The position numbers and the translations under genes were made by a program. The notes below the pieces were generated by a model, which worked only from the letters and a program-made list of their open reading frames with translations, ran no database searches and was not told the origin of the DNA. From positions 186,001 through 250,000 of the forward strand of contig JACCLO010000001.1 of NCBI GenBank assembly GCA_029448655.1: a stretch of 64,000 bases of DNA, written 5' to 3'. Shown here in pieces: positions 1,731 to 64,000 of this stretch (its first letter is position 1; every line of letters begins with the position of its first letter). The DNA comes from Wolfiporia cocos (lineage: Eukaryota > Basidiomycota > Agaricomycetes > Polyporales > Phaeolaceae).

Positions 1731-2429
1731 TGTCACAGATTTGGGACATGCCACTATTTTTCCCGTATTTTTACCTATTTATCTGGTATTTCTACGACCT
1801 TGTAGACATTTACGCTGCTAAGCGCCCGTCTACACGTACACGCAACCAAACAACACGTACACAACGCGGTATACGTCCACTTGTCATAACAACACGTACA
1901 TAACACGCTTGTACGCGTCAATGACTCAGCGGACTAACCTTCGGTGTCACGCGCTTTACTCATATCCCGGTACCGGGCTATGTCAGTACGATTGGATAAG
2001 CGGCCCGCTCGTTATCACATGCCAATGCCCTTATGATTATTCATATCCCGATGCCGGTATATAAGAATCACATGCATGGCTTACTAACGTAGCTACAGCC
2101 ACTTCCACAACATGGACCTACGGTCCAAACAAACGATCTTACTGGTGCGGCCATTACCGGCGCACATGGTCTATTGTAGTTTACGACTTAACCATATTAG
2201 TTATGTCTGCGCACAGACCACCTTCATGTTTGGTTCCCTTACCGGTAACCAAACAAAGCATGTATATAAGTAGGGCTATCACTGCGGATAAGCCTTAGAT
2301 TTGTTCTCTGCATTCGCACAGTCACATATCATCTCTGCTTGCGCCCACTAGTCTCCTCACCAACCTTCTGCAACTCCTTCAAGTCGCCTACAAGGTTATA
2401 GTGTGAGTCCCACAGTCTAGTCTGTGTCA
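1731..2429 (+). repeat. 5' LTR of element A
   Basis: 699 bp, with the same length and sequence class as 11054-11752. It contains a 12-bp palindrome CCCGGTACCGGG at 1966-1977, a TATA box TATATAAG at 2263-2270, the predicted transcript start and self-primer AGATTTGTTCT at 2297-2307, a GTGAGT splice-donor-like site at 2403-2408, and a terminal hairpin with stem CACAG 2411-2415 / CTGTG 2422-2426. Confidence 0.95.
2263..2307 (+). promoter_or_regulatory. TATA box and predicted transcript start of element A
   Basis: TATATAAG at 2263-2270 lies 34 nt upstream of AGATTTGTTCT (2297-2307), the segment complementary to the site after the LTR. The spacing fits a TATA-directed start, which would put the self-primer at the 5' end of the RNA. 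Position of the start is inferred, not measured. Confidence 0.65.
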
Positions 2430-2442
2430 TAAGAACAAATCT
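2430..2442 (+). other. Primer-binding site of element A (self-primer complement)
   Basis: AGAACAAATCT at 2432-2442, two bases after the 5' LTR, is the exact reverse complement of 2297-2307 in the LTR. This matches the Tf1/sushi mode, in which the folded 5' end of the RNA primes minus-strand synthesis. The site does not look like the usual TGG-starting complement of a tRNA 3' end. Confidence 0.8.
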
Positions 2443-3451
2443 CCCCCATACCCCCACCCTTGCGCTTGCGCTTGGGTCTGGGTTTCTATCCTACAGGGGC
2501 TATTACTTGTTGCTGCGCACATCCCTTTCTGCCTGACAAGGCGATTGGGGTGATAGTTGAGATCTGGGGGATACATCACCATTCTCGGCAGAGGATTGGC
2601 AAACAGGGAAGCCACACCGCCTTTTTTAGGCAGGAGGCCTACCTAACCCGGACTCCAGGGTCAAGGAGACATGGTCCTCGCTGACAAGCTTGGACTATGC
2701 GCGGTTAAGACCCGCCTGTGGAGAAAAGGGGACGGTCTGCCTGTGTGCGCCCAACCCCCTGTCATGGCAAGCGTTGTTCAGCGCCCCATCACTATCCATA
2801 GGGTCATCATTATGATGGCATGGGAATTTTCCAAAGCCGCCTCCCAGGCGTAAGGGACCTGCTTTGAACCCGTTATGGGAAAAGCAGTGAGGGGGGTGAC
2901 GTAAAAAATCACCCTGCCATAGGTCACTCGCGGTAGCCAATAGCATAAGTCCTCCGGGCAGCTCGGCGTGCGAGCATGGGTCAAACGGATTTGGGGCCCC
3001 ATTGGAAGAGAAGCGCGTGGCCCACTCCTTCGGGATGTGGAGCGCTGCTGTCTCGCGATCTTAGATCGACAATGGTTTTTTAGCCCTGATGTGACACCCA
3101 TGTGGCTACAGACGGCAACCTCATTGTTGAAGCATGGACAGGCTAAGGGATGTAAAATCCCAGCCACTTTCCGGCATCGTCCCTCCGGGACGGTGTCGTG
3201 TATCCGAATCCCAATCATCTGACCCAGGAACCGGCCTGGCAGTCAGCAACTCTACCCCTGGAGTCGGCGCCTCTGACCGTTAGGGTCATGCGAATATCCG
3301 CGCCGTCTCGGCACAGGGTTTGCGCGCAACATAAGAGTAATTATGCCCCGTAGTACACCTTCTTTGCTCCTGAAAAGGAGTCCACTACCCTACCTTACAT
3401 AATCCCTTTCATTCCTGTTCTTGAACGTATCACTGGGAAACTTCGTTTCTC
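2430..3451 (+). other. About 1-kb non-coding leader of element A
   Basis: No convincing coding frame. The same sequence is in element B (43927-44944). A block near 2700-2790 (GACCCGCC, then GGGGACGGTCTGCCTGTG) is also well conserved in the leader of element F (about 63850-63920), although the F LTR is very different. Conservation without an open frame suggests an RNA function such as packaging, an internal ribosome entry or an intron. Function is inference. Confidence 0.6.
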
Positions 3452-4375
3452 ATGAAGGCTGCACTTTCTAGAATCATGCCCCGCGTTACCCGTCGCACCC
3501 GTGGCTCCTCCACTGCCCCTTACGTCAAACCGGCGAAGCGGTCCCTTCTCAGCCGCATCGACACCACCGACATTCCTCGGGCAGAGGACGTCACCTACAC
3601 CCTTCCTGTAAAGGAAGATTACACTGGGAAACTCCATCTTTGGGAGATTCCCGTCCACATGCCAAAGCACATTGCTGAGGCTGGGAAACCCACTCCTCAA
3701 CCTCCCAAACCAGTTCCGCTCGCTAAGCGTATCTGGACAGAGGAAGAGAAGCTAGCGCAATCCATTACCGCCATGGAGAACCTAATCGAACTCCGCGAAC
3801 TCAACAAGCTCAAGCTCGCCCGCGATAAGCTGAACAAGCGAATCGCCGCCAAACAAGCCGCTAAGGAAGCCAAACAAGCAGCTTCTTCACTGGCCCTCCG
3901 TCTCTCCAGCCCGGCGGCCGGACCTTCTGTTCCGGCCAACCACAAGATTCTCGACCCTTCCCTCGTCTTCGGGAAGAAGAAGCCTCTCCAAGCATGCGAT
4001 CAAGTTATTCCCATGCTAGAAGGCACTCTCACTCGCCTCACTCCTCTCGCCAACCACCCCCCTAATTACCCAGGCTTCCATATGGAAAACGACATGCGTT
4101 TCCATACTATGGTAGTAGAATTGGAGGATCTGGTGGATAACGTAAAGGATAGAGCGAGACGGGGGAGGATCACCAATAGAGACTGGAGAATTATGAAAAA
4201 GTATTGCAAACAGCTCGGCAATATTTCCTTTTTGGATTGGCGTACAGACTTAGCTCGTATCGTAGCAGAATGCGTAGCGCTACAAATTACTTTTGCCTTC
4301 GGTGTAACACCACCTGACAAGGTGGCAGGGCCCTCAACTACTTCGGTAGAAGAGGATATACTCGCGATTGTATAG
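3452..4375 (+). CDS. ORF1 of element A: accessory protein upstream of gag, 307 aa
   Basis: ATG at 3452, stop at 4375, nearly identical to the 307-aa ORF of element B. The first 40 residues are strongly basic (Arg/Lys-rich). Next comes a Pro-rich segment after the motif LHLWEIP (about residues 61-67), then a long charged helix of Lys/Glu/Ala (about 90-150) that could form a coiled coil, and a C-terminal helical part. I see no signal peptide or membrane segment, so it is not an envelope gene. No zinc knuckle or protease motif is visible. A diverged counterpart stands at the same place in element D (55127-55942), sharing LHxxWEIP and N-x-D-x-R-x(3)-KY-x-K. Conservation of length and position in different families indicates a real protein. 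The basic N-terminus suggests nucleic-acid binding, but the function is unknown. Confidence 0.8.
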   Translation: MKAALSRIMPRVTRRTRGSSTAPYVKPAKRSLLSRIDTTDIPRAEDVTYTLPVKEDYTGKLHLWEIPVHMPKHIAEAGKPTPQPPKPVPLAKRIWTEEEKLAQSITAMENLIELRELNKLKLARDKLNKRIAAKQAAKEAKQAASSLALRLSSPAAGPSVPANHKILDPSLVFGKKKPLQACDQVIPMLEGTLTRLTPLANHPPNYPGFHMENDMRFHTMVVELEDLVDNVKDRARRGRITNRDWRIMKKYCKQLGNISFLDWRTDLARIVAECVALQITFAFGVTPPDKVAGPSTTSVEEDILAIV

Positions 4376-4517
4376 TAGAAATACTATCATCTTTAACTCT
4401 GAAATAGAGTGCGAGTGTGATCTATAACGAAAGTCGCAGCTTTCAAAACCAATCCCTTCTTAAGAATCTAAGACAATGAGTAACCGGAAACTAACATTCG
4501 TCACAAACAGATTCACA

Positions 4518-6535: not shown

Positions 6536-7021
6536 AGAACACACCAGCCCCGCAGCGGCTGGGAGTGTACAGCGCCCCGAAGAAGCGCACCTCTACGAAG
6601 AGGCTTCACAGAGACCCCTTATCTTGTGGGAAGATAAGGCGGTCGTACGTCACCCGGTATCCCATCTCGGCATATTCGGTAACATCGGCAATGGACTTTG
6701 CCCGGAGGACAAGGACACTAGCTACACGTGCCCCTCCTGTACAATACTTTTATCCTGACCCACTCGCGCTGAAGTTTTTCACTTTGTATAATGTACATGG
6801 AAACGATTCTCGAGACGACAATAAATCGTTCTCTATCGAAGTGGAACTGTGGGTATATGGAAAGAAAGTCAACGCCATGGCATTAATCGACACCGGTGCA
6901 TCAATAAGCGTCATAGATAAGAAACTCGTACATGAGGAGAAGTTAGTCACTCAGAAACTACCTTCGCCTCTAGAGATTCGCAACGCCGACGGTACCTCTA
7001 ATACCGCCGGTAATATCAACT
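6477..7021 (+). pseudogene. Protease part of pol in element A, frameshifted twice
   Basis: The pol frame opens inside the end of gag, one base ahead, and runs from 6477 to 6758. A one-base insertion near 6682 (TAACATCGG against TAACTCGG in E) moves coding to the next frame, which holds the aspartic protease motif ALIDTGASISVID near 6880-6920. A second insertion near 7020 (ATCAACTATGG against ATCAATATGG in E) moves it again into the RT frame. The catalytic Asp-Thr-Gly is present, but the domain is separated from RT. The same region is continuous in B and E. Confidence 0.85.
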
Positions 7022-10000
7022 ATGGCAGTAAAAGCTTATATGGTGCACGAGGAACACAAGTCCACCGAATTCTTGTACGTAATGGACGTACAGAATGCGG
7101 ATGTGATCCTCGGATATGACTGGTTCCTGAAACACAACCCGGACTTCAATTGGCCGGAAGGAACCTTCACATATCGGTGTACGGAAAAATGCAAACATGG
7201 CAAACGGGTTTCGATTTCTGAGGAAGAAGACGAAATCGAACCTCGCAACATCTATCAGATTATCAACGACTTTCCAATAGATTTTCTCGGCTTAGAGGAG
7301 CCTGAGAATCCCTTTGTCGCTTGGGTGAACACCCTTGACGAAGGAACGGAACTCCTTATCGACGCCATTCAGTCAATAACGGAGAAGTCGGATGATGAAT
7401 TCCTGACAGATGCGGATCTCCAGAAATGGAAATCCTTGGTTCCGGAGGAATATCAGGAGTTTGGTCCCACGGTATTTTCTCAACGCGCATCCGAAAGGAT
7501 GCCCGAACGGAAACCATACGACCACGCCATCGACTTCCCCGATGACGCGGTACTACCGCCTCCGAGTAAGGCATACAAGATGTCTCCTCAGGAAGCGAAC
7601 TCGCTAGATCAGTGGATTCAGGAAGAGTTACGGAAGGGCTACATCCGACACTCGAAATCTCCGATCGCGAGTCCGGTCTTCTTCGTCCCTAAAAAAGACG
7701 GCGGAGCCCGAATGGTAGTCGATTACCGAAAGGTAAACGACTTGACCATTAAAAACAGGTACCCTCTCCCACGCATAGACGAGCTTATCGATAAGCTTAG
7801 CCAGGCTTCGATATTTACGAAGCTCGACTTGCGTTGGGGCTACAACAACGTAAGAATCAAGGAGGGAGATGAATGGAAGACCGCATTCATTACGCCTAAC
7901 GGCCTTTACGAAGCCGTAGTCATGTACTTCGGTTTTTGTAATGCACCCAGCACGTTCCAACACATGATGAACGATATCCTAGGTGACCTTATCAGAGAAG
8001 GAAAGGTCATTGTCTACCTAGACGACATCCTTGTGTTCGGAAACGACCTGCTGGAACACCGTCGTATCGTCAAGCAAGTATTACAAATCTTGCAAGACAA
8101 CGACTTGTTCGCGAAGCCTGAAAAGTGCTTCTTCGAACAAAGCAGTATTGAATACCTGGGAATGATCATTTCCAAAGGAAAAGTCGAAATGGACCCTAAG
8201 AAGGTAGCCGGCGTAATGGACTGGCCTACACCTGCCAAGGTGAAGGACGTCCAGGCCTTTGTTGGCTTCGCCAACTACTACCGGCGGTTCATTAAAGACT
8301 TCTCTAAAGTGGTTAAGCCATTAACCGAACTGTCCAAGAAAAACACGCAGTGGAATTGGGGACCCGAACAAGCGGAAGCCTTCCAAACTCTCAAGGAAGC
8401 TTTCACATCGGCTCCAATACTCCGGATCCCAGATCAGGAATCCCCGTTCCGCGTGGAAGCGGATTCTTCCGATTACGCAACTGGTGCAGTGCTATCGCAA
8501 TACTCTTCGGAGGATAAGCTCTGGCATCCGGTAGCCTTTTACTCGAAATCTCTATCAGCACCCGAAAGGAACTATGAGATTTACGATAAGGAGTTGCTCG
8601 CAATCATCCGCGCTCTAGAGGAATGGAGACATTACCTCGAAGGACACCCACACAAATTTGAAGTATGGTCGGATCATCTCAATCTGACATATTTCAAATC
8701 GGCACAACGGCTTACCCGGAGACAGGCACGTTGGAGTCTTTACCTGACAAGGTTCAACTTCACCATGTGCCACAAACCCGGTAAAACAATGCTTACGGCT
8801 GATCCTCTGTCACGGAGGCCAGACCATGAAGAGGGGGTGGAACTCGACAATCGCGATCAAATTTTGCTGAAACCGGAATACTTTACGGTTAGGGCGCTAG
8901 AAGCGTCACAGCAGGAGATACAATCAGGCGACGAGGACCTTCTCCGACAAATCCGACAAGCCCTCATGGACGATCAAATTACCAAGGATTACCAGGAACT
9001 ACTGAAAAGTGGTCCCAAGGAATTCGGTAAAGATCTCCAGGAATGGAACATGGAGGCCGGATTACTCCTCAGACGAGGAAAAGTGTACGTTCCAAAAGAG
9101 CCTAAGGAATTGCGCACGAAGATTCTGGAGTTACATCATGACCATGTGACGGCCGGACACTTCGGACGATGGAAGACCTATGAACTTCTATCACGTAATT
9201 ACTGGTGGCCTGGAATGACCACAATGGTAAAGCAATACGTGGAAGGTTGTGACACATGTCAACACATGAAGAACCACAACCAGACCCCGTACGGACCCCT
9301 GCAACCGCTCCCAGTTCCGGAAGCACCTTGGGACACCGTCACAATTGACCTTATCGTCCACCTACCACCCAGCGGCGAATTGAAACAATTCAATGCTATT
9401 ATGGTAATAGTGGACCGGCTTACCAAACGAGCACATTTCATTCCCACGTCCGACAAAATAACGGCAAAAGAATTAGCGAACCTCCTGTACCTTCGGATTT
9501 ATCCGAACCACGGACTTCCAAAACAAATCATTTCGGATAGAGGCCCGCAATTTGCAGCCGCCTTATTCAAGGGATGGTGTGAGCAATTGGGAATCCAACG
9601 GTCAATGACAACCGCCTATCACCCGCAAGCGGATGGCCAGACGGAGAGAGTTAACCAGATCCTGGAACAATATCTTAGATGTTACATCGATGTTATTCAG
9701 AAGGATAACTGGTCATGGTTTCTCCCAACGGCTGAATTCGCGTACAACAACGCGGCTAGTGAGACAACAAAGAATAGCCCATTCTTTGTCGAACTAGGAA
9801 GGCACCCTAATGCAGGACCTACGAATTTACGTCCAACACCATACACGGACCTAAATGTCATTGCTTACGAACGATGGTCAGCACAAGAACAAGCTAAGGC
9901 AGCAATGAAACTGGCTGCTGAACGCTGGTCTTGGTACTACGATCAACATAAGCGCTCGGTACCGTTTAAAGTCGGCGACAAAGTTCTCGTTGACGCCCGT

Positions 10001-11014
10001 AGCTGGCAAGACTCCGAAAGAAGTCTTAGTCCACGCTATTTGGGACCATTTAGGATAATTGAACAATTATCTCCGGTCACCTTTAGGGTACACATGGACG
10101 AGCAATACAGGGCTTACCACCCAGTATTCCACGCTTCCAAGTTGGTCATGTACAAGGACCCGGTGCATCAGAAAAAACCAGAGCCTCAACCAGAAATGGT
10201 CGATGGCGAAGAATTATGGGAAGTCGAGAAGATCTTAGATCATCGTCTCCGCGCAGGAAGAGTTGAATACAGAATCCGATGGAAAGGGTTCGGTATCAAC
10301 GACGACTCCTGGGTACGCGAAGCCGATCTCGACACGGCATACGACATCCTGCAGGAATACAAGGCTTCACACGCCATTCCAACGCAGGATGTCCCCCTCA
10401 GGCGATCAGCTAGAAGGAAAGAAGCAGTTCACGTCTTCGACCCTGATAGCGACGACTGGGAAGCCGACGAATGCACGTGGCCAGACGACTGGCCGCAGTA
10501 TCGCGAAGAATTTGCGAAAGATCCTAAGCAGCGCATGGTTAGACACCCCGACGGGGGATGGATGTCAGCTGACATTAACCAAAACGCGGACTTGAAAATC
10601 GTAGTCGGCGAAGGCGGCCGAATGCCGGAAAAAGGAACCAAGGACTCGGTTGGGTTTGACCTGTACACTGCAACAGGCGACGTTCTGCCAGCTCACGGGC
10701 AGACAGAATACAACACCAAACTGAAGATCCAGGTACCTTTCGGCACTTACGGACGTATCGCCCCCCGCTCTAGTCTCGCTCGCAAAGGCATAGACGTAAT
10801 GGGTGGCGTCATCGACCACGATTACCAAGGCGAAGTAATCATCATTCTCCGGAATCACTCCGACATATCTATCGATATTCGGGCCGGCGATAAGATTGCT
10901 CAGCTCATCTGCGAAGTTGCTAAGGACCCGCATATTACGCTACACGGAAAATCTTACTTTGAAAAGATTAAATCCGAGCGCGGTACTGGTGGTTTCGGCT
11001 CCACGGGGAAGTAA
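7022..11014 (+). CDS. pol: Pol of element A: RT, RNase H, integrase, chromodomain, dUTPase (1,330 aa open)
   Basis: The domains in order are as follows. RT has the YLDD active site at residue 332. RNase H has an Asp near 476, Glu in YDKELLAI, and Asp in the ADPLSRR tail, to about 599. Integrase has an HHCC zinc module (from about 704) and a DDE triad in TIDLI (about 773), SDRGPQF (about 838) and QTERVNQ (about 875). A chromodomain follows at about 1062-1115 (VEYRIRWKGF, DDSWV). A dUTPase fills about 1184-1330 with all five motifs: VGFDLYTA, GRIAPRSSLA, GVIDHDYQGE, GDKIAQLI and RGTGGFGSTGK. The enzyme would hydrolyse dUTP and limit uracil in the cDNA. Placement after the chromodomain is unusual; viral dUTPases lie elsewhere in gag-pol. 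The real pol start is upstream in the gag overlap; 7022 only marks where this frame becomes continuous after a frameshift. Confidence 0.95.
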   Translation: MAVKAYMVHEEHKSTEFLYVMDVQNADVILGYDWFLKHNPDFNWPEGTFTYRCTEKCKHGKRVSISEEEDEIEPRNIYQIINDFPIDFLGLEEPENPFVAWVNTLDEGTELLIDAIQSITEKSDDEFLTDADLQKWKSLVPEEYQEFGPTVFSQRASERMPERKPYDHAIDFPDDAVLPPPSKAYKMSPQEANSLDQWIQEELRKGYIRHSKSPIASPVFFVPKKDGGARMVVDYRKVNDLTIKNRYPLPRIDELIDKLSQASIFTKLDLRWGYNNVRIKEGDEWKTAFITPNGLYEAVVMYFGFCNAPSTFQHMMNDILGDLIREGKVIVYLDDILVFGNDLLEHRRIVKQVLQILQDNDLFAKPEKCFFEQSSIEYLGMIISKGKVEMDPKKVAGVMDWPTPAKVKDVQAFVGFANYYRRFIKDFSKVVKPLTELSKKNTQWNWGPEQAEAFQTLKEAFTSAPILRIPDQESPFRVEADSSDYATGAVLSQYSSEDKLWHPVAFYSKSLSAPERNYEIYDKELLAIIRALEEWRHYLEGHPHKFEVWSDHLNLTYFKSAQRLTRRQARWSLYLTRFNFTMCHKPGKTMLTADPLSRRPDHEEGVELDNRDQILLKPEYFTVRALEASQQEIQSGDEDLLRQIRQALMDDQITKDYQELLKSGPKEFGKDLQEWNMEAGLLLRRGKVYVPKEPKELRTKILELHHDHVTAGHFGRWKTYELLSRNYWWPGMTTMVKQYVEGCDTCQHMKNHNQTPYGPLQPLPVPEAPWDTVTIDLIVHLPPSGELKQFNAIMVIVDRLTKRAHFIPTSDKITAKELANLLYLRIYPNHGLPKQIISDRGPQFAAALFKGWCEQLGIQRSMTTAYHPQADGQTERVNQILEQYLRCYIDVIQKDNWSWFLPTAEFAYNNAASETTKNSPFFVELGRHPNAGPTNLRPTPYTDLNVIAYERWSAQEQAKAAMKLAAERWSWYYDQHKRSVPFKVGDKVLVDARSWQDSERSLSPRYLGPFRIIEQLSPVTFRVHMDEQYRAYHPVFHASKLVMYKDPVHQKKPEPQPEMVDGEELWEVEKILDHRLRAGRVEYRIRWKGFGINDDSWVREADLDTAYDILQEYKASHAIPTQDVPLRRSARRKEAVHVFDPDSDDWEADECTWPDDWPQYREEFAKDPKQRMVRHPDGGWMSADINQNADLKIVVGEGGRMPEKGTKDSVGFDLYTATGDVLPAHGQTEYNTKLKIQVPFGTYGRIAPRSSLARKGIDVMGGVIDHDYQGEVIIILRNHSDISIDIRAGDKIAQLICEVAKDPHITLHGKSYFEKIKSERGTGGFGSTGK

Positions 11015-11040: not shown

Positions 11041-11053
11041 GAAGAGGGGGTAA
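11041..11053 (+). other. Polypurine tract of element A
   Basis: GAAGAGGGGG followed by TAA directly precedes the 3' LTR. The same tract precedes the 3' LTRs of B, E and G, and a similar one precedes the TRIMs. Expected primer for plus-strand cDNA synthesis. Confidence 0.8.
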
Positions 11054-11752
11054 TGTCACAGATTTGGGACATGCCACTATTTTTCCCGTATTTTTACCTA
11101 TTTATCTGGTATTTCTACGACCTTGTAGACATTTACGCTGCTAAGCGCCCGTCTACACGTACACGCAACCAAACAACACGTACACAACGCGGTATACGTC
11201 CACTTGTCATAACAACACGTACATAACACGTTTGTACGCGTCAATGACTCAGCGGACTAACCTCCGGAGTCACGCGCCTTACTCATATCCCGGTACCGGG
11301 CTATGTCAGTACAATTGGATAAGCGGCCCGCTCGTTATCACATGCCAATGACCTTACGATTACTCATATCCCGATACCGGAATATAAGAATCACATGCAT
11401 GGCTTACTAACGTAGCTACAGCCACTTCCACAACATGGACCTACGGTCCAAACAAACGATCTTACTGGTGCGGCCATTACCGGCGCACATGATCTATTGT
11501 AGTTTACGACTTAACCATATTAGTTATGTCTGCGCACAGACCACCTTCATGTTTGGTTCCCTTACCGGTAACCAAACAAAGCATGTATATAAGTAGGGCT
11601 ATCACTGCGGATAAGCCTTAGATTTGTTCTCTGCATTCGCACAGTCACATATCATCTCTGCTTGCGCCCACTAGTCTCCTCACCAACCTTCTGCAACTCC
11701 TTCAAGTCGCCTACAAGGTTATAGTGTGAGTCCCACAGTCTAGTCTGTGTCA
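11054..11752 (+). repeat. 3' LTR of element A
   Basis: 699 bp, starts TGTCACAG, ends CTGTGTCA, followed by the target duplication GCATG at 11753-11757. It differs from the 5' LTR at about a dozen positions by eye, mostly transitions. Confidence 0.95.
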
Positions 11753-14985: not shown

Positions 14986-15544
14986 TGTCACAGACTTTCT
15001 CTATGCAGGTTTGGACTCCCTCGCTATAGGACGCACGCGCGGCGCTAGGCGTACGCCGCGTCTCTGCGCTGTAGCCACCTCCAGCGTCTCCCAGTTATTG
15101 CAGGTCACCTGGTCGCCTGGTTAGCGCTGTAGGGTAGCGCGCGCCTCAGGTACCGTCACTTATGGTCACATTGTTACATGTCTCGTTACCTAGCACATGA
15201 CCCATTAGATAGCGGTGCACAGACCACGTCTTTAGGGCGGTCTCGGTAGTAGATACAAGCATGTATATAATACGACGAGATGTGGGTTAATACCCCATCT
15301 CTCAGATTCTCGACAATGGTGTATAACCCGTTCTTACTTAACGCTGTGTGACTTGCTGGCCCGGGGCCCACATCTCTGCGCCCTTGTCTGTGAGCCACCG
15401 CCGCTATCTCGACGTACACAAGGGATCTTGTCAATCCCACGTTGCCTCTGCGTTCAGCGCTGGCGCGGTGCCTTGTAGGCTCGACTGGTGTCGAGTATGG
15501 TTCCCCCTGAGCCCAGGGGTCGCACAGACAGTAAGTCTGTGTCA
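14986..15544 (+). repeat. 5' LTR of TRIM-1
   Basis: 559 bp. TATATAA at 15264-15270, self-primer ATCTCTCAGATT at 15297-15308, a shared U3 motif GTGCACAGACC...TTTAGGGC at 15214-15239, GTAAGT at 15531-15536, and a terminal hairpin with stem CACAGAC 15523-15529 / GTCTGTG 15535-15541. Confidence 0.92.
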
Positions 15545-26166: not shown

Positions 26167-26173
26167 CATGATC

Positions 26174-31901: not shown

Positions 31902-31913
31902 ATTCCTAAGATT
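31902..31913 (-). other. Primer-binding site of TRIM-2
   Basis: On minus, AATCTTAGGAAT follows the 5' LTR. It is the exact complement of the LTR segment at 32150-32161. In TRIM-1 both sides read differently (AATCTGAGAGAT and ATCTCTCAGATT): both sides changed together. Confidence 0.85.
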
Positions 31914-51945: not shown

Positions 51946-52146
51946 ATCTCGTAGTCGGCTATTGTATAATGGCCGGGTTCGTGAACGTGGTATGGGATGC
52001 GGAGAGTGTCAAAAAGAAACTTCTCTCCCGGTCTAGTAGGGTGGGTTACGTTGAGGAACGTCGTTTTGGCGATCCTGAGGGGTTTGTTGATAAAAGAATA
52101 ATAAAACTGTCGGGATGATCGTCGACAGTAGGGGAGTCTGAACTTA
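51946..52146 (-). other. Short leader and primer-binding site of element C
   Basis: About 200 bases. The site at 52135-52145 (on minus AAGTTCAGACT), next to the 5' LTR, is the exact complement of 52203-52213 in the LTR, which lies 33 nt from a minus-strand TATAAT starting at 52246. Confidence 0.8.
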
Positions 52147-52529
52147 TGGCAAGGCCACTAAAACCTTAGAGCGAACTGAGGGGAGCGAAGTGGATGAACG
52201 CCAAGTTCAGACTGGGGTTTCCAGCTGAACGAGGTCTGCTATTATACTGCTAGGTTGTTTATACATGTTTATGCTATAATGGCCGTATCTGGTAAGTAGG
52301 GAGTCTGGGGCATGACTAGGGTAGGGGTCTAAGCCAGACTATGAAACAAGGAAGCGTAATAAGATATGAAATACGTAGCGGTCATTGTGGCCGTGTGGGA
52401 GTACGGTCATGGGTCATGATTGGGCGCGATCCGGGTCCTTCCAGTGTATGATCCGGGCCTGGCTGGGTGCCGGGAGTCTTGGGACCGGGTCGGGCTCGTT
52501 GTCATTAGGAAAAGCTTTTGCCTGTGACA
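52147..52529 (-). repeat. 5' LTR of element C
   Basis: 383 bp, pair of 33601-33983 with a few differences; its inner end reads TGGCA instead of TGACA. Followed by CAGAG at 52530-52534. Confidence 0.92.
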
Positions 52530-53775: not shown

Positions 53776-54413
53776 TGTCACAAGATTTTCCTAGTATTAA
53801 TACTATTTTTCCCATATTTCTACGCATTTATCTACGGTTTATACGTCTAACTAGTGCTTAACTGGTTGGTAACTATTCGTTACATACAAGCCGAATGATG
53901 GCCGTGTTATCTCCCGTAGCAACGGTATCTAATCACGGTAGTTCCCGTTATAAGTCACATGTCTATTCTTGTAGCCAATCGGACATCTCGTCCGTGAAAC
54001 GTCATACACATTAGCTCAGCGGACCGGCGTTTGGTCACGCCTCCAACTGACTAATGATTGCGCATTATACGCCATTCGCGCGGCCTACGCCGCACACCTA
54101 TATCCCGGTTTTGATCGGCATATGTATTTACGGTGTATTACTAATTACTTAGGTCTCCGAGGACTTGCCTGTACGGATTGGGGTAATTAGATTAGGTAAT
54201 AAGACTGTTAGGGGTCTTATATAACATGTATATATACTACGATATCTGAGCGTTAACACCTCAGATTCTATTCATTGCATTTGCACTCCGAGTTAACAAC
54301 TCAGCGCGCCCTGCTCTACCTGCTTAACAAGTTCTTGTCTACTCGACAACCTCAAAGCTACCGCCTAACCAGCAACCTCAAAGCTTATAGTATAAGTGAG
54401 TAGTCTTGTGTCA
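53776..54413 (+). repeat. 5' LTR of element D
   Basis: 638 bp, TGTCACAAG...TTGTGTCA. TATATATA at 54229-54236, self-primer CAGATTCTATTCAT at 54262-54275, GTGAGT at 54396-54401. A TCTGAG...CTCAGA hairpin near 54245-54266 overlaps the primer. Confidence 0.88.
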
Positions 54414-55126
54414 TATGAATAGAATCTGCTTCCGCCCTCGCCCTACCTGAAAAGGGGGGTCTGGGATTTTTCTTCATAGGGGCTTCTCGTCGTCGTCAGC
54501 GCCCCCCGCTCGCCGTCAGGCAGCGGGGTTTCCCTAGTGGGATCTGGGGGATCGCCTTTGGGCAGCCTTTGGGCAACATACCCGGACCCAGGGTTAAGGG
54601 ACGGGCTTGGCACCTGCAAAGGGCCTTGCCGAGAGTTGAGAACCGGAGATAATGGGGCACGTGCCACCCTGGATCTCCGGCGATCTTCTAGCCTATCCCC
54701 AGGCGTTACAGGGGCGGCTCTATTATAGAACCGGGGTGGGCCCGAGTGGCCCTGCCTAGAACCGCTGCTGATACGGCTACAGAACGATAGAGTTCTGGCC
54801 TTGGCGCCCTCTAAGTCCCTCAGGGCATGGGTTTGGTTTTAACACTGGCAAGCCCCCTTTCTTGAGCTAGGCGTGGACACATGCGGAGTGTAATACTCCA
54901 AACCCCATACTACCTGCACGCTAGGGAAGCGTGTCAGTTGTATCCCCCACCTGGTAGCGTATGAGAGATGCCAGCCAGTCGCCGACACTAACTCCGGTCG
55001 AGAGCGGAGCGCTCATTGATGCCGGAGGATAAGCGCTAGACTATCAAAAAACGACGATTAGCCCCGACCGAAGACCGCGTGAAATTTTACACTAGATACA
55101 GTAGCTTATAGACTTCTTACGTAGCC
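54414..55126 (+). other. Leader and primer-binding site of element D
   Basis: ATGAATAGAATCTG at 54415-54428 is the exact 14-nt reverse complement of 54262-54275. The remaining leader has no supported frame and shares CCCGGACCCAGGGTTAAGG (54581-54599) with the leaders of A, B and F. Confidence 0.75.
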
Positions 55127-55942
55127 ATGCCGAACACCTTCCGCGTCGCACCCCGCAACGCAGCCACGGGTCTCCACGAGTGTTGGGAGATCCCTCACAA
55201 ACCGATGAAGGCATTCATGCCTGAGGAAGTGGGGCCCGTGCGAAAGTCCCGAAAGGGCAAAAAGGAGGCGAAGAAGCCTTACACCCGGAGAGAGGCAGAC
55301 CCCGAGACTATCGAAAGGGTCAACCACGAAGCGGCCCTAGCCGACATACACCGCAAGAAGCTCGACAAGCTCTTCCGTCAGAAGGAGAAGCTCGAAGCCC
55401 GACTCGACGCAGCCCGGCTCGACGAATACATCGCCCGGGTCGCCGCCGAAAAAGCCGAAACCGAACGGCTCATCGCCGCCGGCAAAGCTAGACGCGAACA
55501 GGGTCCCAAAAAGACCTTGTTGGAGAGGGTAGAGGAGCTGCGGATGGCCCCGTTATGGGCCGAGGAACGCGGGATCAGTAACCCCCGCGACATGCACTGC
55601 ACCGAAAAGAAATGGGACTGGTGGATCGAAACCGAAAAGAAGATCCTCGCCGCCCACCCCCGGCTCACCAAACTCTGGTGAGCCAAAGATTACTCGACAC
55701 CCGCGCCAATCATGGCCAAGTACACCCAGCTCACCGGAGACTTCGATGAGCTGTGCGCCAATGGGGAACATCGTGTCCGACAGGACTCGATGAAGAACCA
55801 GGACCTCAGGCGCTTGGACAAATACTTAAAGCGGATGGAGTACATATTTGGGGACTTAGACATTGCGGAGCATGTAACATACCTAAAGAGGCAGTTGGTA
55901 ACCGCCAAGTTGGACTTCGATCTGGGTAAACCCGAGTTGTAA
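55127..55942 (+). CDS. ORF1 of element D, split by one in-frame TGA
   Basis: ATG 55127; open to TGA 55679-55681 (184 aa), then open again in the same frame to 55942, for 270 sense codons in total. This compares with 307 aa in A and B. Shared features: LHECWEIP near residue 25 (LHLWEIP in A), a long Arg/Lys/Glu/Ala helix, and an N-x-D-x-R-x(3)-KY-x-K motif in the part after the TGA. That the similarity continues past the stop suggests a single ancestral protein. The TGA follows TGG (Leu-Trp-stop) and may be a mutation or read through. Function unknown. Confidence 0.65.
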
Positions 55943-56101
55943 TAGTAGCACGAGACTCAAATCAAAAGTCCCGACAGGGCAATTTTGAAGGTGGCATGGC
56001 ATGCGAAAAGTCCCGTCAGGGCATTTTTATTCCTTTTTTTTTGAATCTTTTAAGTCGAACGTGACAAATAAGACTCAAGCTGACGAAAAAATTCAGCAAC
56101 A

Positions 56102-57130
56102 ATGGTGTCTTACACAATCATCCCCGCCGCCGGAGCACACGCCACTACCTACAAGGTAGCAACGGCTTACCGTCCGATGACCGGAAAACATGCATGGCCC
56201 GGAGAGCAGACATGCCTCATGGAGTACCTGCGAATTGTTTTCGGCATCAGAGCTGGGGGGAGTGTCACCACCTTCAACTCGATTCCGCCCCACATATGCA
56301 CACACCTACGGGTGAACTATCTCGTATACTTCAAGTACTACGGGGAGGACTCGACCAGGAACCACATCTCGTGGTACCCCTGGGACAAATACGCAGAGAG
56401 CATACTGCTCTCTGACCTAATCTGTCTCTACGGAGACGTACATTGGTACTCGACCAGCGAAAGCGAAGGCGAGGAGACGCCCACGCGGGCAATCAGGACC
56501 CCAGAAAGGTCCCCCACGAGATCCGAGGAAGAAGCGTCCAAGCAGGCGCTGTTCGGCACGCTGCCGGACATGCTTCCGGAATTCGAAGCCGAGACGATCG
56601 AACCAGTCGTCTTGCCCGCACCAACACAGTCCGAATACGTGGAACGCCTCACCAGGGGGGTAACATCTTACAGCCCCGACAACCTGGGACTGTCTATCAA
56701 TGCAGTCAAAGAGGGCCGGTACCACGCCGGCAACTATGTTATGGCAAACCTCGCCTCATATAGCCGAACCGTCGACCGTAAACTCGAAAGGGTCTGGTCG
56801 AAGTCGAACGAGATCAGGTCGCACAACCAGTCTCTTCAAATGCGAATCGATGCACTAGAAGAGAACGTGACCCTCCGAAACCAGCTAGACGACCTAACCG
56901 GGAAACGTCTAGACAAGTTGGAGAGTGGTCTCAGGAGACTCGAGAAGGCCCCCGCAGCCAGCGGAAGCGGTGGAAACAGTACCACCACAGGCGCCGAAGT
57001 CCAGGCGCTAACAAATAAATTGGACACGCTCCAGAAGGAACTGGACAACCTGAAAGCGGCAGCTCTCGCCCAGCCGAGCGGAACTGCCACAACCATCAAT
57101 CTTGCCCCGAAACCCACGCAGCCCCCAAAG
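56102..57130 (+). pseudogene. gag: Gag N-terminal part of element D, cut by element E
   Basis: ATG 56102, open for 343 codons and stopped by the first bases of the inserted LTR. The first 130 residues look globular (YTIIPAAGAHATTYKV, aromatic-rich). An acidic Ser/Glu linker and a coiled coil (about 240-335) follow, as in the N-terminal gag of A and B. The capsid domain is missing because it lies beyond the insertion. The assignment is from position after ORF1 and architecture. Confidence 0.65.
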
Positions 57131-57829
57131 TGACACAGACTAGACTGTGGGACTCACACTATAACCTTATAGGCGACTTGAAGATGTTGCAGAAGGTTGG
57201 TGAGGAGGCTAGTGGGCGCAAGCAGAGATGGTATGTAACTGTGCGAATGCAGAGAACAAATCTAAGGCTTATCCGCAGTGATAGCCCTACTTATATACAT
57301 GCATTGTTTGGTTACCAGTAAGGGAGCCAAACATGAAGACGGTCTGTGCGCAGACATAACTAATACAGCTAAGTCGTAAACTACAATAGACCATGTGCGC
57401 CGGTAATGGCCGCACCAGTAAGATCGTTTGTTTGGACCGTAGGTCCATGTTGTGGAAGTGGCTGTAGCTACGTTAGTAAGCCATGCATGTGATTCTTATA
57501 TACCGGCATCGGGATATGAGTAATCGTAAAGGCATTGGCATGTGATAACGAGCGGGCCGCTTATCCAATTGTACTGACATAGCCCGGTATCGGGATATGA
57601 GCAAAGCGCGTGACACCGGAGGTTAGTCCGCTGAGTCATTGACGCGTAAAACCGTGTTATGTACGTGTTGTTATGACAAGTGGACGTATACCGCGTTGTG
57701 TACGTGTTGTTTGGTTGCGTGTACGTGTAGACGGGCGCTTAGCGGCGTAAATGTCTACAAGGTCGTAGAAATACCAGATAAATAGGTAAAAATACGGGAA
57801 AAATAGTGGCATGTCCCAAATCTGTGACA
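57131..57829 (-). repeat. 3' LTR of element E
   Basis: 699 bp, same family as the LTRs of A and B, TGACACAG...CTGTGACA on plus; the purine tract on minus adjoins at 57830-57842. Donor-like GTGAGT on minus at 57152-57157. Confidence 0.93.
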
Positions 57830-57868
57830 TTACCCCCTCTTCAGGTTTCATTGTCCCTAATGGAACGA

Positions 57869-60800
57869 TTACTTCCCCGTGGAGCCGAAACCACCAGTAC
57901 CGCGCTCGGATTTAATCTTTTCAAAGTAAGATTTTCCGTGTAGCGTAATATGCGGGTCCTTAGCAACTTCGCAGATGAGCTGAGCAATCTTATCGCCGGC
58001 CCGAATATCGATAGATATGTCGGAGTGATTCCGGAGAATGATGATTACTTCGCCTTGGTAATCGTGGTCGATGACGCCACCCATTACGTCTATGCCTTTG
58101 CGTGCGAGACTAGAGCGGGGGGCGATACGTCCGTAAGTGCCGAAAGGTACCTGGATCTTCAGTTTGGTGTTGTATTCTGTCTGCCCGTGAGCTGGCAGAA
58201 CATCGCCTGTTGCAGTGTACAGGTCAAACCCAACCGAGTCCTTGGTCCCTTTTTCCGGCATTCGGCCGCCTTCACCGACTACGATTTTCAAGTCCGCGTT
58301 TTGGTTAATGTCTGCTGACATCCATCCCCCGTCGGGGTGTCTAACCATGCGCTGCTTAGGATCCTTCGCAAATTTTTCGCGATACTGCGGCCAGTCGTCT
58401 GGCCACGTGCATTCGTCGGCTTCCCAGTCGTCGCTGTCAGGGTCGAAGACGTGAACTGCTTCTTTCCTTCTAGCTGAGCGTCTGAGGGGGACATCCTGCA
58501 TTGGAATGGCGTGTGAGGCCTTGTATTCCTGCAGAATGTCGTATGCCGTGTCGAGATCGGCTTCGCGTACCCAGGAGTCGTCATTGATCCCGAACCCTTT
58601 CCATCGGATTCTGTATTCAACTCTTCCTGCACGGAGACGATGATCTAAGATCTTCTCGACTTCCCATAACTCCTCGCCGTCGACCATTTCTGGTTGAGGC
58701 TCTGGTTTTTTCTGATGCACCGGGTCCTTGTACATGACCAACTTGGAAGCGTGAAATACTGGGTGATAGGCCCTGTATTGCTCGTCCATATATACCCTAA
58801 AGGTGACCGGCGATAATTGTTCAATTATCTTAAATGGTCCCAAATAGCGTGGACTAAGACTTCTTTCGGAGTCTTGCCAGCTACGGGCGTCAACGAGAAC
58901 TTTGTCGCCGACTTTAAACGGTACCGAGCGCTTATGTTGATCGTAGTACCAAGACCAGCGTTCGGCAGCCAATTTCATTGCTGCCTTAGCTTGTTCTTGT
59001 GCTGACCATCGTTCGTAAGCAATGACATTTAGGTCCGTGTATGGTGTTGGACGTAAATTTGTAGGTCCTGCATTAGGGTGCCTTCCTAGTTCGACAAAGA
59101 ATGGGCTATTCTTTGTTGTCTCACTAGCCGCGTTGTTGTACGCGAATTCAGCCGTTGGGAGAAACCATGACCAGTTATCCTTTTGAATAACATCGATGTA
59201 ACATCTAAGATATTGTTCCAGGATCTGGTTAACTCTCTCCGTCTGGCCATCCGCTTGCGGGTGATAGGCGGTTGTCATTGACCGTTGGATTCCCAATTGC
59301 TCACACCATCCCTTGAATAAGGCGGCTGCGAATTGCGGGCCTCTATCCGAAATGATTTGTTTCGGAAGTCCGTGGTTCGGATAAATCCGAAGGTACAGGA
59401 GGTTCGCTAATTCTTTTGCCGTTATCTTGTCTGACGTGGGAATGAAGTGTGCTCGTTTGGTAAGCCGGTCCACTATTACCATAATAGCATTGAATTGTTT
59501 CAATTCGCCGCTGGGCGGTAGGTGGACGATAAGGTCAATTGTGACGGTGTCCCAAGGTGCTTCCGGAACTGGGAGCGGTTGCAGGGGTCCGTACGGGGTC
59601 TGGTTGTGGTTCTTCATGCGTTGACATGTGTCACAACCTTCCACGTATTGCTTTACCATCGTGGTCATTCCAGGCCACCGGTAATTACGTGATAGAAGTT
59701 CATAGGTCTTCCATCGTCCGAAGTGTCCGGCAGTCACATGGTCATGATGTAACTCCAGAATCTTCGTGCGCAATTCCTTAGGCTCTTTTGGAACGTACAC
59801 TTTTCCTCGTCTGAGGAGTAATCCGGCCTCCATGTTCCATTCCTGGAGATCTTTACCGAATTCCTTGGGACCACTTTTCAGTAGTTCCTGGTAATCTTTG
59901 GTAATTTGATCGTTCATGAGGGCTTGTCGGATTTGTCGGAGAAGGTCCTCGTCGCCTGATTGTATCTCCTGCTGTGACGCTTCTAGCGCCCTAACCGTAA
60001 AGTATTCCGGTTTCAGCAAAATTTGATCGCGATTGTCGAGTTCCACCCCCTCTTCATGGTCTGGCCTCCGTGACAGAGGATCAGCCGTAAGCATTGTTTT
60101 ACCGGGTTTGTGACACATGGTGAAGTTGAACCTTGTCAGGTAAAGACTCCAACGTGCCTGTCTCCGGGTTAGCCGTTGTGCCGATTTGAAATATGTCAGA
60201 TTGAGATGATCCGACCATACTTCAAATTTGTGTGGGTGTCCTTCGAGGTAATGTCTCCATTCCTCTAGAGCGCGGATGATTGCGAGCAACTCCTTATCGT
60301 AAATCTCATAGTTCCTTTCGGGTGCTGATAGAGATTTCGAGTAAAAGGCTACCGGGTGCCAGAGCTTATCCTCCGAAGAGTATTGCGATAGCACTGCACC
60401 AGTTGCGTAATCGGAAGAATCCGCTTCCACGCGGAACGGGGACTCCTGATCTGGGATCCGGAGTATTGGAGCCGATGTGAAAGCTTCCTTGAGAGTTTGG
60501 AAGGCTTCCGCTTGTTCGGGTCCCCAGTTCCATTGCGTGTTTTTCTTGGACAGTTCGGTTAACGGCTTAACCACTTTGGAGAAATCTTTAATGAACCGAC
60601 GGTAGTAGTTGGCGAAGCCAACAAAGGCTTGGACGTCCTTCACCTTGGCAGGTGTAGGCCAGTCCATGACACCGGCTACCTTCTTAGGGTCCATTTCGAC
60701 TTTTCCTTTGGAAATGATCATTCCCAGGTATTCAATACTGCTTTGTTCGAAGAAACACTTTTCAGGCTTCGCGAACAAGTCGTTGTCTTGCAAGATTTGT

Positions 60801-62404
60801 AATACTTGCTTGACAATACGACGGTGTTCCAACAGGTCGTTTCCGAACACAAGGATGTCGTCTAGGTAGACAATGACCTTTCCTTCTCTGATAAGGTCAC
60901 CTAGAATATCGTTCATCATGTGTTGGAACGTGCTGGGTGCATTACAAAAACCGAAGTACATGACTACAGCTTCGTAAAGGCCGTTAGGCGTAATGAATGC
61001 GGTCTTCCATTCATCTCCCTCCTTGATTCTTACGTTGTTGTAACCCCAACGCAAGTCGAGCTTCGTAAATATCGAAGCCTGGCTAAGCTTATCGATAAGC
61101 TCGTCTATGCGTGGGAGAGGGTACCTGTTCTTAATGGTTAAGTCGTTCACCTTTCGGTAATCGACTACCATTCGGGCTCCGCCGTCTTTTTTAGGGACGA
61201 AGAAGACCGGGCTCGCGATCGGGGATTTCGAGTGTCGGATGTAGCCCTTCCGTAACTCTTCCTGAATCCACTGATCTAGCGAGTTCGCTTCCTGAGGAGA
61301 CATCTTGTATGCCTTACTTGGGGGCGGTAGTACCGCGTCATCGGGGAAGTCGATGGCGTGGTCGTATGGTTTCCGTTCGGGCATTCTTTTGGATGCGCGT
61401 TGAGAAAATACCGTGGGACCAAACTCCTGGTATTCCTCCGGAACCAAGGATTTCCATTTCTGGAGATCCGCATCTGTCAGGAATTCATCATCCGACTTCT
61501 CCGTTATCGACTGAATGGCATCGATAAGGAGTTCCGTTCCTTCGTCAAGGGTGTTCACCCAAGCGACAAAGGGATTCTCAGGCTCCTCTAAGCCGAGAAA
61601 ATCTATTGGAAAGTCATTGATGATCTGATAGATGTTGCGGGGTTCGATTTCGTCCTCTTCCTCAGAAATCGAAACCCGTTTGCCATGTTTGCATTTTTCC
61701 GTACACCGATATGTGAAGGTTCCTTCCGGCCAATTGAAGTCCGGGTTGTGTTTCAGGAACCAGTCATATCCGAGGATCACATCCGCATTCTGTACGTCCA
61801 TTACGTACAAGAATTCGGTGGACTTGTGTTCCTCGTGCACCATATAAGCTTTTACTGCCATATTGATATTACCGGCAGTATTAGAGGTACCGTCGGCGTT
61901 ACGAATCTCGAGAGGCGAAGGTAGTTTCTGAGTGACTAACTTTTCCTCGTGGACGAGTTTCTTATCAATGACGCTTATTGATGCACCGGTGTCGATTAAT
62001 GCCATGGCGTTTACTTTCTTTCCATATACCCACAGTTCCACTTCGATAGAGAACGATTTATTGTCGTCTCGAGAATCGTTTCCATGTACATTATACAAAG
62101 TGAAAAACTTCAGCGCGAGCGGGTCAGGATAAAAGTATTGTACAGGAGGGGCACGTGTAGCTAGTGTCCTTGTCCTCCGGGCAAAGTCCATTGCCGAGTT
62201 ACCGAATATACCGAGATGGGATACCGGGTGACGTACGACCGCCTTATCTTCCCACAAGATAAGGGGTCTCTGTGAAGCCTCTTCGTAGAGGTGCGCTTCT
62301 TCGGGGCGCTGTACACTCCCAGCCGCTACGGGGCTGGTGTGTTCTTCACAGAACGTCTTCGAGACGTGTGGTTGGGGCGAGGGGAACCGAGATGGTCCCG
62401 ACAT
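57869..62404 (-). CDS. pol: Intact pol of element E, 1,511 aa: protease to dUTPase
   Basis: The only complete pol in the window. Domains in order: aspartic protease (ALIDTGASISVID, about residue 140), RT with YLDD (about 513), RNase H (to ADPLSRR, about 780), integrase zinc module (HHDHVTAGH) and DDE core, chromodomain (about 1243-1296), and dUTPase (about 1365-1511) with all five motifs. The frame is +1 to the end of gag, with which it overlaps. In the zinc-module region YWWPG reads YRWPG, a possible weakening. All other catalytic residues that I can name are present, so this copy could supply enzymes if translated. Confidence 0.95.
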   Translation of the reverse strand: MSGPSRFPSPQPHVSKTFCEEHTSPVAAGSVQRPEEAHLYEEASQRPLILWEDKAVVRHPVSHLGIFGNSAMDFARRTRTLATRAPPVQYFYPDPLALKFFTLYNVHGNDSRDDNKSFSIEVELWVYGKKVNAMALIDTGASISVIDKKLVHEEKLVTQKLPSPLEIRNADGTSNTAGNINMAVKAYMVHEEHKSTEFLYVMDVQNADVILGYDWFLKHNPDFNWPEGTFTYRCTEKCKHGKRVSISEEEDEIEPRNIYQIINDFPIDFLGLEEPENPFVAWVNTLDEGTELLIDAIQSITEKSDDEFLTDADLQKWKSLVPEEYQEFGPTVFSQRASKRMPERKPYDHAIDFPDDAVLPPPSKAYKMSPQEANSLDQWIQEELRKGYIRHSKSPIASPVFFVPKKDGGARMVVDYRKVNDLTIKNRYPLPRIDELIDKLSQASIFTKLDLRWGYNNVRIKEGDEWKTAFITPNGLYEAVVMYFGFCNAPSTFQHMMNDILGDLIREGKVIVYLDDILVFGNDLLEHRRIVKQVLQILQDNDLFAKPEKCFFEQSSIEYLGMIISKGKVEMDPKKVAGVMDWPTPAKVKDVQAFVGFANYYRRFIKDFSKVVKPLTELSKKNTQWNWGPEQAEAFQTLKEAFTSAPILRIPDQESPFRVEADSSDYATGAVLSQYSSEDKLWHPVAFYSKSLSAPERNYEIYDKELLAIIRALEEWRHYLEGHPHKFEVWSDHLNLTYFKSAQRLTRRQARWSLYLTRFNFTMCHKPGKTMLTADPLSRRPDHEEGVELDNRDQILLKPEYFTVRALEASQQEIQSGDEDLLRQIRQALMNDQITKDYQELLKSGPKEFGKDLQEWNMEAGLLLRRGKVYVPKEPKELRTKILELHHDHVTAGHFGRWKTYELLSRNYRWPGMTTMVKQYVEGCDTCQRMKNHNQTPYGPLQPLPVPEAPWDTVTIDLIVHLPPSGELKQFNAIMVIVDRLTKRAHFIPTSDKITAKELANLLYLRIYPNHGLPKQIISDRGPQFAAALFKGWCEQLGIQRSMTTAYHPQADGQTERVNQILEQYLRCYIDVIQKDNWSWFLPTAEFAYNNAASETTKNSPFFVELGRHPNAGPTNLRPTPYTDLNVIAYERWSAQEQAKAAMKLAAERWSWYYDQHKRSVPFKVGDKVLVDARSWQDSERSLSPRYLGPFKIIEQLSPVTFRVYMDEQYRAYHPVFHASKLVMYKDPVHQKKPEPQPEMVDGEELWEVEKILDHRLRAGRVEYRIRWKGFGINDDSWVREADLDTAYDILQEYKASHAIPMQDVPLRRSARRKEAVHVFDPDSDDWEADECTWPDDWPQYREKFAKDPKQRMVRHPDGGWMSADINQNADLKIVVGEGGRMPEKGTKDSVGFDLYTATGDVLPAHGQTEYNTKLKIQVPFGTYGRIAPRSSLARKGIDVMGGVIDHDYQGEVIIILRNHSDISIDIRAGDKIAQLICEVAKDPHITLHGKSYFEKIKSERGTGGFGSTGK

Positions 62405-62473
62405 TGGCGACGGTGGTGGCGGGGGCCGAGGGTCCTGCTGAGCTTGAGTCAGCCGTTACTTCTTCCCAGATCG
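62347..62473 (-). pseudogene. gag: C-terminal end of gag of element E
   Basis: The last 41 codons of gag, ending at TGA 62347-62349, overlap the beginning of pol. It is cut by the LTR of element F at 62474. Confidence 0.8.
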
Positions 62474-63569
62474 TGTCACAGATTTATCTGGGACTTACAG
62501 CATTTTTCCTACGATTATAGCAATTTACCTGGGATTTATACGTCTAACTACCAGTTATCTACGGGTTAACTCCCACTGCCACCACGACAAGCTCTTAACT
62601 GGGCTTATCACCACATGACTAGCTTACATAACGCTACGGCACCTTCCGGTCCAATAGCATAGTTACAGCTACGTCATACAGGTCTCGCCCGTCAGAGCAA
62701 GACCAGCCACGTCATAGATCCTAGATCATAATGATAGGCCGAGCGCGGCACGCTCGCATAATAATGTCCACAAGTACAAACAGTGCCTCGCGGCCTTGTA
62801 CTATTGGGTCGGCCTTCCCGGCTTCCCATCGCCATAAGATCCTAGATCACAATGGCACCTCAGGCGCGCCACGCCTTCGCATAATAATGGCAACACGGCC
62901 AAATAGCACTATATTAGCATCAAGGCAATATCGCTATAGGCTACGGCCTTTCTCGGCCTCTCACGGACTCGGCGTTCTCCAAGTCCCGGGCTTCTGCCAT
63001 CACGGCGTTGCCCAAACACCGGTCCTCGCCTCACGGCTAAGACCACCATATGTTCCGGTAACCTTCCGGTCCGGACATATCACATGCTACGGTGCCTGCT
63101 GGCCCAATAGCATTACGACCTCGGCGTTCCGCCTTGGTCAGCACACGATGACCGGCCAATCGCCATTATACCTCACGGTATCCGGCAACCGGCATCCCTT
63201 ATACCCGGGCTGCGCCCGTCTTCACATGTCCATCTAACGATGAGACCACACGCTCTCTCTTTTACCATTGGCTCGGCCATTACCGGCGGGTCACGGCCTT
63301 TGTAGAGTAGTCGTATCACTTGGTCGCCCTTATGGCAACCAAGCCCACACTCCTTATCGGGCATGCACTATACAGTAGCACATGACCCGTTAAATATATG
63401 TATATAAGTAGGGCCTTGACGGCCTATAACTTTAGTTCTATTCTTCTCGGCGTACGCCGTAGAAGAACATTCCACCTACTACAGCGTCTGATAACCTCTA
63501 CCTCACCTCGTCGCCTTAGTTCATCACAAGGATACTGGCGTGGTGAGTCCCACAGAGCCATCTGTGTCA
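62474..63569 (+). repeat. 5' LTR of element F, 1,096 bp
   Basis: TGTCACAG...CTGTGTCA. TATATAAG at 63401-63408, self-primer TAGTTCTATTCTT at 63433-63445, GTGAGT at 63543-63548, terminal hairpin CACAGA 63551-63556 / TCTGTG 63561-63566. U3 contains partly repeated CTAGATCA-AATG...CGCATAATAATG blocks near 62720 and 62845. Confidence 0.88.
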
Positions 63570-64000
63570 TAAGAATAGAACTACCTACCCCCCTGCGCCT
63601 CCTTAACTGGTGGCGCCTGGGTTTTTCCTCCTACAGGTGTCTGAGATAGCGCAGGGGCCGCTACTCTCCTGCAAAGAGGATGTATGCTCCGTGGTTGTGG
63701 ATATGGGATACATCGGCGGCGGGCTTAGCGGCCTGCTGCCACCCAGTGGGGCGCTGCTTGCCTAATCAGCAGCATGCGTCCTGCGAACCCGGACTCCAGG
63801 GTTAAGGAGAGGCGCCGGCTTCCTGACAAGGTTGCTGGTGCCAGCGGTTGAGACCCGCCTATTGGGAAAAGGGGACCGTCTGCCTGTGTGCGCGCAGCCC
63901 CCTGTCTTGGCAATCCCTGTTCAGGGACCCAACACTACCAGTAGGATCCCCATAGGGATATGCGCTTCGGCGTATTCCCTTAGTTGGGTGTGGGAATCTT
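63570..64000 (+). other. Leader and primer-binding site of element F
   Basis: AAGAATAGAACTA at 63571-63583 is the exact 13-nt reverse complement of 63433-63445. The block at about 63850-63930 is strongly similar to the leaders of A (2700-2790) and B, despite an unrelated LTR. No coding frame with support. Confidence 0.75.

Follow-up and report, generated by a model that had tools for sequence, protein, structure and literature searches.

How do the long terminal repeat (LTR) retrotransposons of the fungus Wolfiporia cocos prime the synthesis of their minus-strand DNA? The question is posed by a stretch of 64,000 nucleotides (nt), hereafter the window, which lies at C1:186001-250000 in a genome of 64.4 Mb in 76 contigs. 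An earlier note on this DNA had claimed that all visible elements carry a self-primer: the site after the 5' LTR pairs with the predicted 5' end of the element's own RNA, as it does in the Tf1/sushi group of retrotransposons. As far as sequence can tell, priming of the Tf1/sushi type is very probably the best reading of these pairs. It is supported by exact pairs in 13 of 13 elements, by 26 of 26 copies of small TRIM-like elements (terminal-repeat retrotransposons in miniature) in which the two paired segments co-segregate, and by the lack of a fitting tRNA among those compared.

Seven pairs had been listed for the window, and all seven are indeed exact reverse complements. In element A on the forward strand, the primer-binding site (PBS) at 2432-2442 is the reverse complement of an LTR segment at 2297-2307, which would be the RNA 5' end and the self-primer. 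The other forward-strand pairs, LTR half before PBS, are 15297-15308 and 15546-15557 in TRIM-1 (T1), 54262-54275 and 54415-54428 in D, and 63433-63445 and 63571-63583 in F. On the reverse strand, the pairs are 32150-32161 and 31902-31913 in TRIM-2 (T2), 45066-45076 and 44932-44942 in B, and 52203-52213 and 52135-52145 in C.

These pairs belong to a larger set obtained from a blind LTR search of 264 kb, made up of the window, 40 kb on either side of it and 120 kb of contig C2. Direct-repeat pairs were listed, and 13 that resembled LTRs were kept (G, T4, A, T1, T2, C, B, D, E, F, T3, H and I). Each was scored by the longest exact match between its post-LTR site and the reverse complement of its own LTR. 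With the raw BLAST limits, which were over- or under-extended in D, I and T4, 11 of the 13 elements reach at least 10 nt, the misses being I and T4. Once the ends had been adjusted by hand towards TG...CA, 12 of the 13 match over 11-14 nt, and a separate boundary correction for T4, whose 3' LTR copy is interrupted by another insertion, makes it 13 of 13. Element E, which is missing from the earlier list since its 5' LTR falls beyond the window, fits as well. The claim for all visible elements hence stands for every element with a 5' LTR junction; it does not reach a reverse transcriptase (RT)/integrase remnant at about 11851-14056, for which an LTR pair was looked for and none found.

The pairing is specific to each element. 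When the 13 elements are read in the opposite orientation, the match falls to 5-7 nt. The set contains eight distinct primer types, each of which matches its own LTR over 11-14 nt, whereas the 56 combinations with a foreign LTR yield only 5-9 nt. That the paired sequences vary between families and still fit their own LTR, as the earlier note had stated, is thus borne out by the full eight-by-eight matrix. The control with shuffled post-LTR sites, which the note had proposed, also came out in favor of its claim: only 2 of 2000 shuffles reach 11 nt and 5 of 2000 reach 10 nt.

In all eight types the paired stretch opens at an A, directly preceded by four pyrimidines, and a TATA box begins 32, 33 or 34 nt before it, in agreement with the spacing given in the earlier note. 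In A the TATA box occupies 2263-2270 (34 nt before the paired stretch), in C it begins 33 nt before, and in D and F it starts at 54229 and 63401. With TATAW occurring at 0.0053 per base in these LTRs, less than 2% of cases should show a match in any one 3-nt bin. The LTR half does lie at the predicted start of transcription, but the agreement is not perfect to the base: if the A, likely at 54263 in D and 63434 in F, is the first base of the RNA, these two elements pair one extra base on the 5' side, which we count as chance. At the other end, the PBS begins 1-2 nt past the 5' LTR, and the paired stretch ends at the second base past the LTR (the third in elements of the A family). Counted from the predicted start, the LTR ends after 67 nt in C and 104 nt in H. 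The corresponding values are 132-133 nt for the A family, 136 nt for F, 151 nt for D and 246-248 nt for the TRIM-like elements, after subtraction of one base in D and F and of five in T4.

This arrangement closely resembles what has been described for Tf1 of fission yeast. There, the PBS pairs with the first 11 bases of the RNA, which is then cleaved by RNase H between bases 11 and 12 (PMC7175516). Another paper presents self-priming, through a structure of three duplexes, as a feature common among Tf1/sushi elements (PMC10085805). In all 13 elements studied here, the PBS appears to be the complement of the RNA 5' end, predicted from TATA spacing alone, and not a tRNA PBS. Given exact pairs 32-34 nt from a TATA box, the RNA is therefore predicted to fold back so that its 5' end primes minus-strand DNA. 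Transcription would begin with the opening A of the paired stretch, and the RNA 5' end would then pair with the PBS. The element's RNase H would cut after about nucleotide 11-13, and the freed 3' OH would be extended through U5 and R.

The covariation of primer and PBS was also followed in copies elsewhere in the genome. Two patterns that join an LTR end to TAA, CYTGTGTCATAA and TCTGTGTCATAA, occur at 262 and 562 sites, and their reversed versions at 7 sites each; the TCTGTGTCATAA sites were counted only. From the first 100 sites listed for CYTGTGTCATAA, 20 copies spread over the list were fetched, chosen blind to further sequence. The exact 11-mer lies 101-104 nt from the LTR end in 15 of them, and a TATA box is found at 32-33 nt in 18 of the 20. 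Shuffled controls reach 10 nt in 2 of 400 cases and 11 nt in none of 400. Two of the 15 copies (L058 and L069) are compensated variants, in which an altered PBS is accompanied by the matching change in the LTR half. Comparing copies with each other is uninformative within this family, as 134 of 280 such comparisons reach 11 nt.

The TRIM-like elements provide a second case. Their PBS junction is found at 72 sites in three subtypes (reversed pattern, 0), and the LTR half at 280 places (reversed, 0), with three of eight allowed variants present among the first 100 of these places. We compared 26 of the 72 PBS sites, from C1 to C9:575217, three of them from the window and L008. All 26 carry the LTR half of their own subtype, with 13, 9 and 4 copies per subtype, and one position takes three pair types that are matched every time. 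A further copy read directly (L075) also fits its own subtype, and T4 represents a fourth subtype outside the search pattern. The distance from half to PBS is 237-251 nt in 25 of the 26 copies; in the remaining one, C1:3716847, it is 838 nt, with another LTR end in between (L072).

Some observations do not sit easily with self-priming. No exact pair is present in five of the 20 sampled CYTGTGTCATAA copies: a single base of the LTR half is altered in L054 and in L063, L065 has two altered PBS bases and an intact LTR half, and in L051 and L061 the LTR is divergent or interrupted upstream. Copies within a family are not independent, and because they share descent, the within-family matches are a few events seen repeatedly. 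The side duplexes of the Tf1 "pretzel" did not clearly stand out from shuffled sequences, the U5 side of C apart (4 of 200 shuffles equal or better; 13-191 of 200 in the other 25 tests). The chromodomain, which would be expected in this group, is weak in C (E = 0.0012, below the cut-off), and the domain scan found none in H, where SH3_Tf2-1 is present. Finally, the tRNA comparison covers 30 of the 49 host tRNA hits. In L061 we also observe a second LTR end directly after the place where the self-primer of an H-type LTR is expected, apparently an insertion that parts primer from PBS.

What else could explain the pairs? Priming by tRNA is the rule for most LTR elements. One could therefore argue that a host tRNA, or an internal fragment of one, is the real primer and that the match to the LTR is secondary. 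The 30 tRNAs compared, all matched by Rfam, do leave out those for Met, Lys, Leu, Asn, Asp, His, Phe and Trp. However, none of the 13 elements has TGG at positions 1-4 of its post-LTR site. Set against the 30 tRNAs, the sites match over at most 8 nt at any position and over 6 nt in the final 20 nt, whereas the match to the element's own LTR is 11-14 nt long. Shuffled sites match tRNAs over 5-10 nt, so the tRNA matches of the real sites look like chance. The comparison with tRNA 3' ends that the earlier note had suggested thus yielded no fit. A tRNA primer would also not make the PBS subtypes covary with the LTR, and we regard it as highly improbable. Even less credible is that the match arose by chance or through common descent of a single site. 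It is true that copies within a family are related and that a very few shuffles do reach 11 nt. Yet sequence varies among the eight types, each of which fits its own LTR far better than any other, and both the matrix and the TRIM subtypes contradict this idea, as does the recurrence of the LTR-end junctions (262, 562 and 72 times, as opposed to 7, 7 and 0 when reversed). We are almost certain that it is wrong.

A different possibility is that the duplex is real but serves as an RNA switch, controlling circularization, dimerization, packaging or translation, and that something else is the primer. The duplex does dominate the predicted fold of the leader, with a mean pair probability of 0.90-0.98 between primer and PBS in all 13 elements. 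The seven leaders tested also fold more stably than mononucleotide shuffles (z from -2.6 to -5.4, the duplex itself included). Both facts would suit a switch. On the other hand, the site is found at the usual place of a PBS, 1-2 nt past the LTR, the pair begins at the predicted +1, its length is near the 11 nt of the Tf1 primer, and tRNA, the sole other class of primer tested, does not fit. A switch without a priming role therefore seems very unlikely to us, and self-priming is the reading that we retain.

The proteins of these elements point in the same direction. The coding elements examined (A, C, D, E and H) are Ty3/gypsy elements with a dUTPase, and their pol includes an RNase H. The pol of A (6974-11014, forward strand, the limits being those of the stop-to-stop frame) consists of RT, RNase H, integrase, an SH3 domain like that of Tf2-1, a chromodomain and a C-terminal dUTPase. 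E has the same set plus a protease, and D has a set of the A type spread over two frames. In all three, RT, RNase H, integrase, SH3_Tf2-1 and the chromodomain are over the cut-off, a composition that by its domains would place A, D and E with the Tf1/sushi chromoviruses. In A, D and E the dUTPase stands at the C-terminal end of pol, and in C and H it lies upstream of RT (window 6974-11014, 49183-50883 and 57869-62455; L011; L006). In C, the frame upstream of RT (49183-50883, reverse strand) encodes a gag domain just below the Pfam cut-off together with the dUTPase. H and A are 41% identical over 1068 positions. The best named match of the A pol is from Trametes, others are from Lyophyllum, Leucocoprinus and Pleurotus, and more distant ones include vertebrates, an ascomycete and a plant. 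Single in-frame stops part three consecutive open stretches in H (L011:1527-7973, reverse strand) and two in C (window 49180-52008, reverse strand). They can be likened to the in-frame stop of Tj1 and are here either functional or a sign of decay. As a further observation, GGGGGTAA, GGGGGTGA or GGGGGTAC directly precedes the 3' LTR across families (for example, at 11046-11053). A GAC that lies some 25 nt before the 3' LTR recurs as well.

Five of the 13 elements, F and T1-T4, have no recognizable enzyme genes. They nevertheless all carry pairs of 11-14 nt, and the earlier note was right to include non-autonomous elements in its claim. F is 6058 bp long, with identical LTRs of 1096 bp, and contains no frame over 192 amino acids between them. 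A tblastn search with nine frames from A, H, C and D, the pols of A and H included, found nothing in the internal regions of F and T1-T4, and a Pfam scan of one frame each from F and T1 gave no match. F does share with A an alignment of 631 nt (75%) after the 5' LTR and one of 56 nt (88%) at the end with the polypurine tract (PPT). Because the leader and PPT regions are shared and no coding trace was found, F appears to be a non-autonomous element related to A, with a primer pair of its own. Within F (relative 63570-67435), the shared regions are likely a core for packaging and plus-strand priming. The TRIM-like T1-T4 and F, which resembles a large retrotransposon derivative (LARD), would borrow the enzymes of an autonomous relative and supply the primer in cis. 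With the primer in cis, the primer sequence of a non-autonomous element would therefore be free to differ from that of its helper.

The elements appear to be recent and are partly nested. LTRs are 98-100% identical within pairs, which points to recent activity, and by eye 12 of the 13 elements have exact 5-bp target-site duplications (TSDs); that of T4 is CGCGG/CACGG, with one mismatch. On the forward strand, A has its 5' LTR at 1731-2429 and its 3' LTR at 11054-11752 (TSD GCATG), and TRIM-1 at 14986-15544 and 16304-16862 (ATTAG). On the reverse strand, the 5' and 3' LTRs are at 31915-32473 and 30567-31125 in TRIM-2 (GGAAG), at 52147-52529 and 33601-33983 in C (CAGAG), and at 44945-45642 and 34991-35688 in B (CTGTG), which is inserted in C. 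Coordinates past 64000 are relative to the window and lie outside it. D, on the forward strand, has its 5' LTR at 53776-54413 and its 3' LTR from 79443 (ATGGT). Nested in D is E on the reverse strand, with its 3' LTR at 57131-57829 and its 5' LTR, bearing a primer pair of the A type, at 72499-73197. Nested in E is F on the forward strand, with its 5' LTR at 62474-63569 and its 3' LTR at 67436-68531. This nest of F in E in D fills 53776-64000 and continues to 80083, and the LTR identities are 100%, 100% and 99.8%. Outside the nest, G interrupts an LTR of T4.

How do these elements compare with known ones? With the Tf1/sushi group (Tf1, Tf2, Tj1, Tosmo and Tcry1, with Tcn1 proposed) they share a PBS of about 11 nt, complementary to the predicted RNA 5' end, just past the 5' LTR. 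In common with that group are also a purine tract before the 3' LTR and, for A, D and E, a pol composed of RT, RNase H, integrase and chromodomain. They differ in the dUTPase in pol, in predicted primers of 11-13 nt whose sequence varies between families, in the 67-248 nt that separate the predicted RNA start from the end of the LTR among the 13 elements, in side duplexes that, C's U5 side excepted, do not clearly stand out from shuffles, and in having non-autonomous members with private pairs. In the placement of the dUTPase, at the Pol C-terminus (A, D and E) or upstream of RT (C and H), they resemble the Gypsy elements of other basidiomycetes, PosPlaTy3 of Postia and those of Phanerochaete; for Postia, a dUTPase is reported at either end of Pol (PMC2864245). 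Unlike the present elements, those are not described as having self-primers in the published passages concerned. Like TRIM and LARD elements, T1-T4 and F have LTR pairs around an internal region without recognizable gag-pol; a private self-primer sets them apart. With LTRs of about 560 bp and a total length of about 1.9 kb, the TRIM-like elements are long for TRIMs.

The mechanism itself is known, and so is a proposed precedent in basidiomycetes. Tcn1 of Cryptococcus has been proposed to self-prime and Tcn2-5 might prime in novel ways (PMC7175516), and the plant lineages Tcn1 and TAR are predicted to self-prime (PMC6317226). For self-primers in non-autonomous elements, our search, made in a single open library, returned one paper, on bivalve TRIMs, the available passages of which propose no clear mechanism. 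Modestly new, then, are non-autonomous elements with private primer pairs, one of which (F) shares leader and PPT regions with its putative helper. Because the mechanism is known, what is gained is breadth and a test system, and the principle is not new. The gain consists of the unbiased count of 13 out of 13, five apparently non-autonomous elements included, of compensated variants that occur naturally, and of non-autonomous elements with primers of their own. Searches for a PBS of the tRNA type would class all these elements as lacking one.

A 2006 paper on Tf1 reportedly found that the self-primer stays in the cDNA. The pairs probably stay exact because a retained primer would rewrite the PBS in every cycle. 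Whether primer and PBS thereby form a single self-copying module is, in our judgment, an evenly balanced question. In such a module, the first 11-13 bases of the RNA would rewrite the PBS, and the pair could drift freely and still stay exact. Non-autonomous parasites could then come to differ from their helper in the priming step and still be copied. The TRIM subtypes of W. cocos allow one to ask whether it is selection or the copying of the primer that keeps the pairing exact.

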